A DNA stretch of 47,719 bases from Caulobacteraceae bacterium. GTDB taxonomy: Bacteria; Pseudomonadota; Alphaproteobacteria; Caulobacterales; Caulobacteraceae. Both the position numbers and the translations under genes were made by a program. The stretch lies in NCBI GenBank assembly GCA_028290905.1, contig JAQGIW010000076.1, positions 1 through 47,719 of the forward strand, in the 5' to 3' direction. A model generated the notes under the pieces. The model was not told where the DNA came from, made no database searches, and saw nothing but the letters and a program-made list of their open reading frames with translations. This document shows, piece by piece, positions 27,962-32,945 of this stretch (position 1 is the first letter of the stretch; each line of letters begins with the position of its first letter).

Positions 27962-29305
27962 ATGCCTGCCCACGCCCGCCCGCCCCATTATGGACTTTTG
28001 CTTCTCGGAGCGTACGCGGGGGCGCTGTCGCTCGCGCCGATGACGGCGGCGGCGAAGCCGCGTGAGGGCGTGGAGGCCCGGCTGAAGCGGATCAACGCGC
28101 TGCTGGCGGCCCAGGCGCTGCGCATCCAGCAACAGGAAGACCGCCTGGCCGCCGAGGAGCGGGAGATCGCGCGCCAGCGGGCCGAGCTGGCCGAACTGCG
28201 GGCGCGGCAAGCGGCCCCGCCCCAGAACCAGGCTGCGGCGGGCGTGGTGGCGCCTCCCCTCCCGAGCGCTGCCCTGGCCCAGAACGCCGCCCCGCCGCCT
28301 CCCCCGACCCCGGCGCCGAGCGGACCTACGGCCGCCCTGCCCGCCAGGCCGGTGGGCCAGGCGCCCGAGACCAACATCAAGCCCGTCGTCCTGGCCTCCA
28401 TCCCGCAGAACCTCGGGGTGCTGACGCCCCGCCATCACTTCGTCTTCGAACCGGGCGTCGAATACGACCGGGTGGGAACCAACCGCCTCGTCTTCGAGGG
28501 CGTGGAGATCGTGCCCGGCCTCCAACTCGGACTCGTCAACGCCAATTCGGTCGCCGCCGACGTGGTGATCGGCACCGCCGACCTGCGCTACGGCGTGACC
28601 AACCGCCTCGAGCTCGAGGCCAAGGTCCCCTATTTCTACAACCACGACCGGCTGACATTCATCGCGCAGCAGGTGACCACCGGGGCGCCGCCGGTGAACA
28701 TGACCACCAACCTTCAGGGCTACAGCCTGGGCGATGTGGAGTTCGCCGCACGCTACCAGATCAACCGGGCCCAGGAGGGCAAGCCCGTGTGGATCGCCAG
28801 CCTGCGAGCGCGCGCCGACACCGGGATCGGTCCTTACGACGTCCACTTCAACAGCTCGGGAATCGCCACCAGCCTTCCCACCGGCTCCGGTTTCTGGGGA
28901 GTGGAGCCGGGCATGACCATGCTGCTGCCCATCGACCCGGTGGTGCTGTTCGCCAACGCGGGCTACATGCGCAACTTCCCCGGAAACGTGAACAAGACCA
29001 TCGGCTTGACGCATGTCGGCCATGTTTCGCCCGGAGATTCCGTGGACACCAGCTTCGGCTTCGCCTTCGCCCTCAATCCCAGCTTTTCCTATTCCCTGGG
29101 CTTTTCCAACAGCTACATCTTCGGCGCCAGCCAGCAGCTGAACGCGACGGTCCTGCATTCGAACGACCTGGAGGTCGGCTCTCTCACGCTCGGCCTCTCT
29201 TTTCGGGTTCGCCGGAACCTGCTCCTGACGACCAACCTGCAGTTCGGCGTCACCCCGGACGCGCCCAATCTGCAGGTGATCTTCCGAATGCCACTCTCGT
29301 TCTGA
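27962..29305 (+). CDS. FapF-like outer membrane beta-barrel protein with N-terminal coiled coil
   Basis: Signal-like N-term; coiled coil GVEARLKRINALLAAQALRIQQQEDRLAAEEREIARQRAELAELRARQ; Pro-rich linker; barrel GVLTPRHHFVFEPGVEYDRVGTNRLVFEGVEIVPGLQLGLV...ADLRYGVTNRLELEAKVPYFYNHDR. Confidence 0.8.
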   Translation: MPAHARPPHYGLLLLGAYAGALSLAPMTAAAKPREGVEARLKRINALLAAQALRIQQQEDRLAAEEREIARQRAELAELRARQAAPPQNQAAAGVVAPPLPSAALAQNAAPPPPPTPAPSGPTAALPARPVGQAPETNIKPVVLASIPQNLGVLTPRHHFVFEPGVEYDRVGTNRLVFEGVEIVPGLQLGLVNANSVAADVVIGTADLRYGVTNRLELEAKVPYFYNHDRLTFIAQQVTTGAPPVNMTTNLQGYSLGDVEFAARYQINRAQEGKPVWIASLRARADTGIGPYDVHFNSSGIATSLPTGSGFWGVEPGMTMLLPIDPVVLFANAGYMRNFPGNVNKTIGLTHVGHVSPGDSVDTSFGFAFALNPSFSYSLGFSNSYIFGASQQLNATVLHSNDLEVGSLTLGLSFRVRRNLLLTTNLQFGVTPDAPNLQVIFRMPLSF

Positions 29306-29326: not shown

Positions 29327-29866
29327 TCAGTGGGTGACCGCGCCGAGAGTGGCGGCGTTCAGGCCGCTGGACAGGCCGGCGCTGGTCTGGAACATGGCCG
29401 CCGACCGGCTCAGTTGGGTGAAGTTGGGGAGCACCAGGTTCACGGCGGTGTCCTGCCGGATCACCTTGTTGCTCGCGGTGTTGATCACCAGGTTGAGAAG
29501 TTGGTTCCCGGAGACGCCCTGCGCCAGGGTCACCGCTCCACCCAGGCTGAACGCCCCGCCGGCCGCCAGGCCCAGGCGCGCCGCCAGCGCGGGGTCCGCA
29601 GCGGTCAGGCCTGGACCGGCGGTGGTGAGGCTGGCGATGGCGCCGTTGTCGCCGAGGGTCAGGGTCGTGAGCAGTGCGAGGCGGCCGTCGACATAGGTTT
29701 TCTCCACCGCGCCGAAGCCGAAAGTGATCCCGCCGGCGGTCACGAACCCCCCACGGACATCGTCCAGCTCCGCATCGCTCATCGGCGTGGCGGCAGGAAC
29801 GCTCGCCGCCACGCCCACGGCCAGGGTGGCGGCGACCATCCACGCCCGCCGCGCCAGCGCCCTCAT
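29327..29866 (-). CDS. exported protein with double-glycine-like motif, Fap-type locus component
   Basis: Signal peptide ...LAVGVAASVPAATPMSDAELDDVRGGFVTAGG; C-term GNQLLNLVINTASNKVIRQDTAVNLVLPNF. Confidence 0.7.
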   Translation of the reverse strand: MRALARRAWMVAATLAVGVAASVPAATPMSDAELDDVRGGFVTAGGITFGFGAVEKTYVDGRLALLTTLTLGDNGAIASLTTAGPGLTAADPALAARLGLAAGGAFSLGGAVTLAQGVSGNQLLNLVINTASNKVIRQDTAVNLVLPNFTQLSRSAAMFQTSAGLSSGLNAATLGAVTH

Positions 29867-30582
29867 CGCGTCGCTCCCAGTTGGGTCACCTGGAACAGGG
29901 GTGGCGTCTCCACCACCAGGTCCAACTCCGGCGGGGTGAGCGCCGTCGCCATCGGGGGCGGCGCCCTGAAGCGCCACTCTTCCGGTCGGTTGAAGGCGCC
30001 GCGGGCGCCGCCCTCGTCGTGGATCATGAAGACGATGTGTCCCCAGACCTTCTCGAAATCTCCGCGCGAGTAGATCTTCACGCCGCTGGCAGGGTCGCCG
30101 ACCAGCACCTCCCCGGGGCGCACGCCCTTGATGACGACGAAGTGCTTGTACGGTCCGATGCTGATCACGGCGATCGACGGCGCCTGGATTTTCAGTAACT
30201 CGTCGTAGCCGAGCCTGTAACCATCGGGCTTGAAGCCCTGGTTGGCGAGGTATGTCTTCATGTCCAGGAGGGAGAAGCCGACCTTCTGGATCTTGGCCTG
30301 ATCGCCGGCGGCGTACATGGCGCGAAAGACCTGCGCCTCGCCGACATCCCGGCCGTAATGATAGCGCAGCAGGGTGGCCACCGCGGCCGATCCGCAACTG
30401 TAATCGTACCTCTGGCGCAGCACCGCGCGGAACGGGATGTCGCGATAGGTCGTGACCGGCAGGCTATACGCTCCCCTCACGCCCTCGATCGCGATCTGCG
30501 CGTGGCCGGCCGCCGACAGCGCGCACAAGGCCATCACGCTCGCCGCCAGGCCGATATCCCGATCCGCCCTGCGCCCGGCCAT
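29863..30582 (-). CDS. periplasmic C39-family cysteine peptidase (FapD-like)
   Basis: Signal peptide; Q...YDYSCGSAAVATLLRYHYG (Q/Cys), YKHFVVIKGV (His), VGDPASG (Asp); no ABC transporter domains. Confidence 0.88.
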   Translation of the reverse strand: MAGRRADRDIGLAASVMALCALSAAGHAQIAIEGVRGAYSLPVTTYRDIPFRAVLRQRYDYSCGSAAVATLLRYHYGRDVGEAQVFRAMYAAGDQAKIQKVGFSLLDMKTYLANQGFKPDGYRLGYDELLKIQAPSIAVISIGPYKHFVVIKGVRPGEVLVGDPASGVKIYSRGDFEKVWGHIVFMIHDEGGARGAFNRPEEWRFRAPPPMATALTPPELDLVVETPPLFQVTQLGATR

Positions 30583-30586
30583 GTCT

Positions 30587-30991
30587 TCAGCGCAGCGGCG
30601 TCACGGTGACGCTGAGGCTGCCCTGCAGGATATTGTTGTTGCCGGTGTTGATGACGAAATTGCCGATGCCGTTGAACCCCTGCAGGGCTCCGGCTTCGAA
30701 CGACACCGCCCCCGTCTGGACGTTGGCGGCCGAGATCGAATTGCCGCCGTCGGACGCCGTCAGGGTCTGGGCCGTTATCGCCATCGGCGTGGGGCTCTGT
30801 CCGGCGCTCACCGCGTCAAGCTGCGCCTCGTCCATGACGGCCGGCGCCCACCAGGGCGCCATCGGCCGCGCGCCCGAGGACGCATTCGACGACAAGGGGG
30901 CGGCGCCGCCAGGGGCCGCGGTCGCCGCGCCCGCGATGAGGAACAGAGCGAGCACCCCGATCGCGGAAGCTTTTTCGAGATTGAGCAACAT
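30587..30991 (-). CDS. small exported protein, Fap-type locus component
   Basis: Signal peptide MLLNLEKASAIGVLALFLIAGAATAA; MDEAQLDAVSAGQ; C-term GIGNFVINTGNNNILQGSLSVTVTPLR. Confidence 0.7.
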   Translation of the reverse strand: MLLNLEKASAIGVLALFLIAGAATAAPGGAAPLSSNASSGARPMAPWWAPAVMDEAQLDAVSAGQSPTPMAITAQTLTASDGGNSISAANVQTGAVSFEAGALQGFNGIGNFVINTGNNNILQGSLSVTVTPLR

Positions 30992-31067: not shown

Positions 31068-31883
31068 TCAGTGGCCGAAGGTGATGTTCGCATTGGCCGA
31101 CAGCGACGTCGCCGCCTGGCTGGCGGAGCCGATGCCGGTGTTGTTGCTCACTGTCTGAATGCCGGCGAAGGCTGCGGAGCCGCTGTTGCCGGTGCTGATG
31201 GCGCCGGTCGTCACGCTGCCGCTGGAGTACGAGCCGGGGCCGACCGGCGCGCCGGTCACCGTGGCCGAGAGATCCTCCCACGAAAGGCTGGCGGTGATGA
31301 CGTTGTTGGAGTCCGTCGTCGTGTTGTTCGAGTTCGTGTCTGTATGCGTGTGCGTCGAGGTGTCGTTGTAAGACCAGTTGTACGAACCGTTGGTCGAGTT
31401 GTTGGGGTTGTATGAATCGTTGGTAGAGTTGTTGGTGTGATCGTCCGTATTCGTCGTGGTCGTCGTGTTCGTCGTGTCATTTACGGTTTTACTGTGTGTG
31501 TTGTACGAGCCGTTGGTAGAGTGATCAGAGTTATCAGCGGTCTTTGTTGTCGTGTTGTTGGAATTCTTAGTCAAGGTGTTATTGGAATCGTTTACCGAAT
31601 TATCTGTTTTGGTGATTGTTTTGTTGTCTGTTTTAGTATTGTAGGAGTCGTTGGTTGAGCTGTCCGTCTTGGTGAGGGTCTTGGTGTTTTTGGAGTCATT
31701 GGTTGAATTGTCCGTCTTGGTGACGGTCTTCGTGTTGTTGGAGTCATTCGTCGAATTGTTGTTGTAAGAACTATTCGTCGAATCGTTTGTCGTGGTCGTC
31801 GTCGGGGTGGCCGCCATGGCGACACCAAATAGCCCGCAGCTCAACACGACGGCGGACGCTGAGGCTAGAAAATGGACCCGCAT
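31068..31883 (-). CDS. secreted Asn/Thr/Ser-rich repeat protein, FapB/FapC-like putative amyloid subunit
   Basis: Signal peptide MRVHFLASASAVVLSCGLFGVAMA; 16-aa repeats STNDSNNTKTVTKTDN / STNDSKNTKTLTKTDS; C-term AAFAGIQTVSNNTGIGSASQAATSLSANANITFGH. Confidence 0.75.
   Translation of the reverse strand: MRVHFLASASAVVLSCGLFGVAMAATPTTTTTNDSTNSSYNNNSTNDSNNTKTVTKTDNSTNDSKNTKTLTKTDSSTNDSYNTKTDNKTITKTDNSVNDSNNTLTKNSNNTTTKTADNSDHSTNGSYNTHSKTVNDTTNTTTTTNTDDHTNNSTNDSYNPNNSTNGSYNWSYNDTSTHTHTDTNSNNTTTDSNNVITASLSWEDLSATVTGAPVGPGSYSSGSVTTGAISTGNSGSAAFAGIQTVSNNTGIGSASQAATSLSANANITFGH
31302..31793 (-). repeat. degenerate 48-bp tandem repeats encoding N/T-rich segment
   Basis: Repeating GTTGGAGTCATTCGTCGAATTG / TTGGTGACGGTCTTCG modules; + strand is G/T-rich and C-poor. 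Confidence 0.75.
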
Positions 31884-32150: not shown

Positions 32151-32945
32151 TTGTTGGATCGGGGCCGAGAAATGCCGACACTTCGAGTCGATGTGCTAGA
32201 ACGAGGGCGACCACGGCCTGCCATCGACAGATATGTCCCGAGCGGCCGTAACCATCTACTTCGTGTGGCTAGCGCGGACGATCTCGCGCTGCTCTCGCCG
32301 CATCTGAGATCCGTCGATCTGCCTGCCCGCAGGATTCTCGAGCGTCCTGGCGAGCCGATCGAACAGGTCGTATTCCTGGAGGGCGGCGTCGTCTCCGTCG
32401 TCGCCCGCGCCGCCGGCGGCCGCCACATTGAGGCCGGGTTGATCGGCTTCGAGGGAATGACGGGAATCTCCGTGGTGATGGGCGATGACCGCTCGACCCA
32501 CGAGTCTTCGGTCCAGGTGGCGGGCCGCGGCGCCGGCATCGCCGCGGACGCCCTGCGCAAGGCGATGGGCGCCAGCGTGACCCTCCGCGCCATGCTTCTG
32601 CGGTACGTGGAAACCTTCATGATCCAGACTGCCCACACCGCCCTCGCCAACGGCCGCGGCACCATCGAGGAGCGCCTGGCGCGGTGGCTGCTGATGGCCC
32701 AGGACCGCCTGGGCGGCAGCCAGTTGCCCCTGACCCATGACTTGCTGGCCCTGATGCTCGGTGTTCGCCGCGCGGGCGTGACCGACGCCGTCCACCGGCT
32801 GGAGGGCGAGGGCGTCATTCGCGCGCGAAGGGGCCTTATCCTGGTGAGGGACCGGGGCCGGCTGGAGGCCGTGGCCGGCGGCGCCTACGGCGGCCCGGAG
32901 CAGGAGTACCGCCGCCTCCTGGGCGGTTGGCCGATCGGTTACTGA
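32151..32945 (+). CDS. Crp/Fnr family transcriptional regulator
   Basis: Cyclic-nucleotide-binding-like domain LERPGEPIEQVVFLEGGVVSVV...; HTH LTHDLLALMLGVRRAGVTDAVHRLEGEGVIRARRG; GGGGAGG SD before TTG start (alternative ATG 32172). Confidence 0.9.
   Translation: MLDRGREMPTLRVDVLERGRPRPAIDRYVPSGRNHLLRVASADDLALLSPHLRSVDLPARRILERPGEPIEQVVFLEGGVVSVVARAAGGRHIEAGLIGFEGMTGISVVMGDDRSTHESSVQVAGRGAGIAADALRKAMGASVTLRAMLLRYVETFMIQTAHTALANGRGTIEERLARWLLMAQDRLGGSQLPLTHDLLALMLGVRRAGVTDAVHRLEGEGVIRARRGLILVRDRGRLEAVAGGAYGGPEQEYRRLLGGWPIGY

Follow-up and report, generated by a model that had tools for sequence, protein, structure and literature searches.

Sec-exported proteins encoded 3' of stand-alone C39 peptidase genes share a second, double-glycine-type leader behind the signal peptide. 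Its conservation points to a maturation route that we regard as probable, in which Sec export and signal peptidase cleavage would be followed by trimming by the C39 enzyme in the periplasm. The main substrate would be S1, which holds the position of Pseudomonas FapE, and its trimming would license the export of another protein, S3, with a FapF-type pore. The choice of S1/FapE as substrate is well supported by the sequence comparisons; that the leader docks and is cut, at which bond, and that the cut licenses export is what we infer. The original prediction had proposed a two-step, Sec-then-C39 maturation for the two motif-bearing proteins around the peptidase, and motif conservation beside stand-alone C39 genes supports it on comparative grounds.

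A Fap-like cassette in a Caulobacterales genome

Judged by homology, the window (the whole 47,719-nucleotide stretch of DNA analysed, from a genome that its nearest named relatives, Phenylobacterium and Caulobacter, place in the order Caulobacterales) holds a diverged Fap (functional amyloid)-type cassette for fibre or amyloid secretion, an assignment that follows from the best curated matches of the peptidase to FapD and of the convergent gene to FapF. The cassette comprises a FapD-type C39 peptidase, a FapF-type pore, two motif proteins (S1 and S2) and an exported Asn/Thr/Ser-repeat protein (S3), and the five-gene set is found again in Caulobacterales relatives. Signal peptides and open reading frames were called by a simple heuristic. 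S1 (29327–29866, minus strand), Sec-exported and 179 aa long, lies on the 3' side of the C39 gene, where FapE stands in Fap operons. The peptidase gene (29863–30582; 239 aa) sits between S1 and S2 (30587–30991; Sec-exported, 134 aa), all on the minus strand. S3 is encoded at 31068–31883 (minus strand), and the outer-membrane pore, with an N-terminal coiled coil, at 27962–29305 (plus strand), convergent with S1. A Crp/Fnr-like regulator, recognized by eye at 32151–32945 (plus strand), is divergent to the cassette, whose expression it might govern.

The original description of a stand-alone exported C39 enzyme flanked by S1 and S2 proved accurate. The peptidase belongs to PF03412 (Pfam E 2e-19), and among NCBIfam families it comes closest to FapD (E 4e-40), scoring 137 bits where the cut-off is 330, which by sequence makes it a FapD homologue and not an equivalog. 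Gln57, Cys63, His147 and Asp163 are kept in 67–68 of 68–69 aligned peptidase sequences and are invariant in A3. The AlphaFold core has pLDDT > 90, and the top Foldseek matches are PCAT1, 6MPZ (the LahT-leader complex) and ComA; the protein has the C39 fold with the Gln/Cys/His/Asp set by which MEROPS defines C39. As a 239-aa stand-alone ORF without fused ABC transmembrane and ATPase domains, it falls outside the AMS/PCAT exporters. The pore matches NCBIfam FapF with E 2e-37 (129 bits against a cut-off of 700) and the FapF structures 5O65/5O67 in the PDB with E about 1e-28; by the same reasoning it is a FapF homologue, not an equivalog.

S3 is dominated by Thr, Asn and Ser (30%, 23% and 14% of residues 23–190) in NDSxNxSYN-like repeats, and is a putative fibre subunit unlike FapC in sequence, perhaps with a FapC-like role. 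Its C-terminus resembles that of S2 (hhalign P-value 1e-6), and the two proteins appear to have this C-terminal domain in common. There is no leader motif behind the S3 signal peptide, nor in any of the 30 ORFs of upstream Asn-rich, putative fibre-type proteins. At one locus (L153, G532:C11) a Fap-like cassette occurs as a tandem duplicate, with two C39 genes 2.9 kb apart that have equal profile scores, and upstream of each lie S2-type proteins with identical N-terminal sequence.

The second leader and its conservation

Both motifs lie where the original prediction had placed them, in the two ORFs it named. In S1 the leader MSDAELDDVRGG (-12 to -1, residues 29–40; 29747–29782, minus strand) directly follows the signal peptide, which ends near residue 26, and the predicted scissile bond is Gly40–Phe41. 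In a LahT150-leader co-crystal, Leu-12, Glu-8, Leu-7 and Val-4 of a double-glycine leader occupy the C39 groove, and positions -4 to -11 are helical (PMC6363468). S1 fits every position of that register, with M-12, E-8, L-7, V-4, G-2 and G-1, and conforms to the double-glycine consensus L(-12)xxxE(-8)L(-7)xxV(-4)xGG, which bears out the likeness to the C39 leaders of bacteriocin exporters from which the prediction had started. The AlphaFold model of S1 places a signal helix at 4–19 and a leader helix at 31–38 that ends at the glycines and precedes a beta-rich domain; with pLDDT about 63–71 in that stretch, the leader helix is only suggestive. Foldseek found no significant match of the model in the PDB.

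Among 33 diverse S1 homologues, which are otherwise 18–38% identical to the window S1, G39 (-2) is the sole invariant residue besides Met1, and R38, G40 and G46 are nearly invariant. Position -4 is often non-hydrophobic (Q, A or E), which counts against the leader reading. Searches of these homologues against Pfam and NCBIfam returned no named family beyond weak matches to FapE (two of the 33, best 6e-5) and to bacteriocin leaders.

The S2 leader is looser. MDEAQLDAVSAG (-12 to -1, residues 53–64; 30800–30835, minus strand; predicted bond Gly64–Gln65) begins about 27 residues past the likely signal-peptidase site, so that a position just downstream of the signal peptide, originally ascribed to both motifs, holds for S1 and fails for S2. 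It departs from the consensus by Q-8 and A-2, with G at -1. Homologues of S2, with leaders such as IGETELGAISGG, MSADEMAATSGG and LSLEDMDALSGG, have GG at -2/-1 in 14 of 31 cases and GR in seven of 31, and in a few the motif is degenerate.

Shuffling the mature N-terminal 80 aa yields a leader-like match in 2.2% of cases for S1 and 0.24% for S2. A single motif is thus attainable by chance, and the decisive evidence is conservation. We reduced 145 loci to 68 with C39 sequences <70% identical; at 57 of the 68 an exported ORF follows on the 3' side of the C39 gene. The leader is present in 41 of these 57 neighbours, against 0.65 ± 0.77 after shuffling and 7/339 control exported-like ORFs drawn from twenty 20-kb stretches. 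Conservation among orthologs, on which the prediction had been staked, is therefore strong and in the correct register. The 41 leaders have L, V, I or M at -12, D or E at -10, E or D at -8, L (37/41) or M at -7, R at -3 (38/41), G at -2 (41/41) and G (30), R (6) or K (5) at -1, several of these counts being biased upward since the positions served to choose the best window. The F or Y at +1 (37/41) supports the register independently, because that position lay outside the scoring. Some of the 16 low-scoring neighbours are near-misses with RGG (L010, L036, L162); others belong to FilB-type or very distant loci where the gene is not a FapE homologue. Rescoring was confined to the 3' neighbour because a looser earlier count over all exported neighbours (54/201 near a C39 gene, 7/178 in controls, 10.3 ± 3.0 shuffled) had missed some real leaders. 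The leader-bearing loci, beside stand-alone C39 genes, come from Alpha-, Beta- and Gammaproteobacteria and Desulfuromonadales.

Canonical Pseudomonas systems carry the same element. At four loci where FapD exceeds the NCBIfam cut-off (L139–L142), the 3' neighbours bear the canonical FapE leaders LKDQELATLRGR, LKDAEMAELRGR, VPEHELAEMRGR and LKDQELAQLRGK, each followed by Tyr; the neighbour at L140 is FapE with an NCBIfam E of 2e-105. FapA of canonical fap operons carries LSDGDFASVASG or LSDSDFAGVTSG (Pseudomonas FapE and FapA were identified by NCBIfam matches above cut-offs). A second C39 type in Pseudomonas genomes adjoins DUF6160/FilA proteins whose signal peptide is immediately followed by MDDSSLSSVTGQ. 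The mature parts of S1 and FapE barely align (hhalign probability 1.4%), and between the full sequences the alignment is confined to 41 columns near the C-terminus, so that the leader behaves as a transferable recognition element for a common partner.

Co-occurrence also links leader and peptidase. Of the 398 genomes of the order, 28 match S1, and 25 of these show a strong match to FapD as well (Fisher p 1e-29), a figure that is partly trivial, as the genes are inherited as one cassette. Three cases break the pattern: a contig end truncates the gene at L231, stop codons interrupt the copy at L229, and L230 holds a remnant next to fapD debris. The decayed copies, from two closed genomes of the order, lie at L229:6840–7300, with no fapD within the 14 kb read, and at L230:6590–6990, as if the cassette decays together. 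Stronger evidence comes from DUF6160 proteins, which are present in 8/8 genomes that have a FilB-type C39 and in 1/391 others (p 6e-16), the FilB-type group being defined from weaker FapD-profile matches. All but two of the DUF6160 loci read, many of them unlinked, show the leader; of the two, L207 is truncated at a contig end, and the heuristic could not resolve L208.

A candidate maturation route and its rivals

In the proposed route S1 and S2 would be synthesized with one leader behind the other. The first, the Sec signal peptide, would direct them to the periplasm and be removed by signal peptidase I; the second would form a short helix that docks in the groove of the C39 enzyme of FapD type, which would cut behind it and free mature S1 (and S2) in the periplasm. 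The recognized leader would have a hydrophobic residue at -12, an acid at -10/-8, Leu at -7, often a hydrophobic residue at -4, Arg at -3, Gly at -2, Gly, Arg or Lys at -1, and Phe or Tyr at +1. Trimming would probably license S1 to work with the FapF-type pore in the export of the leaderless S3. The licensing step draws on Pseudomonas data: the C38A mutation of FapD abolishes secretion of FapC, and FapE appears in mass spectrometry without N-terminal peptides (PMC5557850). Because position -1 is Arg or Lys in Pseudomonas FapE, trypsin-based mass spectrometry cannot tell a FapD cut behind that residue from a tryptic one. C39 enzymes cleave at Gly-Gly, Gly-Ala or Gly-Ser sites, and the Arg or Lys of canonical FapE and the Gln of DUF6160 proteins are unusual at -1; either P1 specificity differs or the bond is shifted, which makes the exact bond uncertain in these proteins.

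The same non-canonical residues (R, K and Q in many members) favour a different role for the motif, as a docking signal to which the C39 protein would bind but which it would leave uncut, FapD acting as a chaperone for S1/FapE; catalytically dead, binding-only C39-like domains do exist in some type I exporters (PMC5557850, PMC6173800). We consider this unlikely: unlike in those degenerate domains, Cys, His, Asp and Gln are kept throughout, the loss of secretion with FapD C38A (PMC5557850) speaks for catalysis, and the Gly at -2 is invariant, which docking of a helix alone would not need. There is only a slim chance that the main target of the C39 enzyme is the FapF-type pore, cut in the linker that joins its coiled coil to the barrel, and that the S1/S2 motif serves another role. 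Such cutting has been proposed for Pseudomonas FapF (PMC5557850), and 15/30 FapF-like proteins have GG in the region ahead of the barrel, but these linkers are Gly-rich by composition, only 1/30 contains a leader-like motif, and the linker of the window pore has no GG.

That the motif is a chance or compositional likeness, or ordinary conservation of the S1 domain unrelated to any protease, is very improbable; a lone motif has a shuffle probability of 0.2–2%, but conservation, register and occurrence in proteins with unrelated mature parts all stand against it. Least probable of the readings weighed is one in which a bacteriocin-type ABC exporter (PCAT), encoded elsewhere in the genome, uses the motif or left it behind as a relic. 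The window's own genome does have a second C39 domain in an ORF of PCAT size on contig C130, yet S1 and S2 carry Sec signals, and in six of the ten genomes tested (G312, G304, G057, G121, G117 and G675) PF03412 matches no gene other than the FapD-type one, while the S1/FapE motif is still kept; on this ground we rejected the exporter reading. The second C39 domain (C130:3644–3997, L002) lies in an ORF of 782 aa, a size typical of peptidase-containing ABC exporters.

Known systems and wider significance

We lean towards a broader reading in which stand-alone periplasmic C39 enzymes (FapD, FilB and relatives) would provide a general post-Sec maturation route, acting through a second leader of double-glycine-like type, with G at -2 and G, R, K or Q at -1, on Sec-exported proteins with unrelated mature parts, including distantly encoded DUF6160 proteins; FapE, and possibly FapA, would be the long-sought substrate of FapD. 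C39 enzymes and double-glycine leaders are textbook knowledge. Published work already describes FapD and FapE and raises the possibility of FapE being processed by FapD: a 2017 study saw no canonical C39 sequences in Fap proteins (PMC5557850), and a 2025 review has FapD only 'thought to' process FapE and FapF (PMC12822426). In the literature searched, which excluded most subscription journals, we found neither the second leader in FapE-position proteins, nor its register, nor the extension to DUF6160, and searches on FilB/DUF6160 with C39 likewise turned up no mention of this motif. FapD activity is essential for amyloid secretion in Pseudomonas, and its substrate is a long-open question; a conserved leader specifies precisely which residue to mutate and which neo-N-terminus to seek, which makes the substrate directly testable. 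One recognition element would also join Fap, Fil and related cassettes and offer a way to find unlinked substrates.

The window cassette shares with Pseudomonas Fap (fapABCDEF) a FapD-type exported C39 enzyme, a FapF-type coiled-coil barrel and exported subunits, and the gene 3' of fapD bears the same leader and holds the same position as S1. By contrast, the window FapD and FapF fall below the NCBIfam cut-offs, no FapA, FapB or FapC was matched in the window, fapF is convergent instead of last in the operon, and -1 is Gly in place of the Arg or Lys of FapE. Neither S2 nor S3 has a Pfam or NCBIfam match to Fap subunits with their GNxGNxxAGxxNQQxN repeats, and the N/T/S repeat of S3 differs from this FapB/FapC amyloid type; the cassette is therefore Fap-like, not a fap operon proper. 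In a 2013 survey Fap was confined to Beta-, Gamma- and Deltaproteobacteria (PMC3792158), classes that do not include the Caulobacterales; a 2018 review reports fapD-fapF pairs in further phyla (PMC6173800).

With the AMS/PCAT enzymes (ComA, PCAT1, LahT) the window peptidase has in common the C39 fold and catalytic residues; the leaders of the two kinds share the register L-12, E-8, L-7, V-4, G-2, G-1 and the short helix before the site. Unlike the AMS/PCAT enzymes, the window peptidase is stand-alone and Sec-exported with no ABC transporter attached, its candidate substrates are Sec-exported proteins of about 130–250 aa, and the cut would follow inner-membrane transit, uncoupled from it. The Fil system (FilA/DUF6160, FilB C39 and FilC barrel; a 'putative pilus system' in NCBIfam) likewise has a stand-alone C39 gene adjoining a FapF-like barrel, and exported proteins in which [LM]DDxxLxxVTGQ immediately follows the signal peptide. 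It differs in having Gln at -1, several unlinked candidate substrates and mature parts unrelated to S1. The DUF6160 (FilA-like) exported proteins at L199–L218, which come from Pseudomonas-type and related genomes and many of which are encoded apart from any C39 gene, have [LM]D[DN]xx[LM]xxVxGQ at the mature N-terminus.
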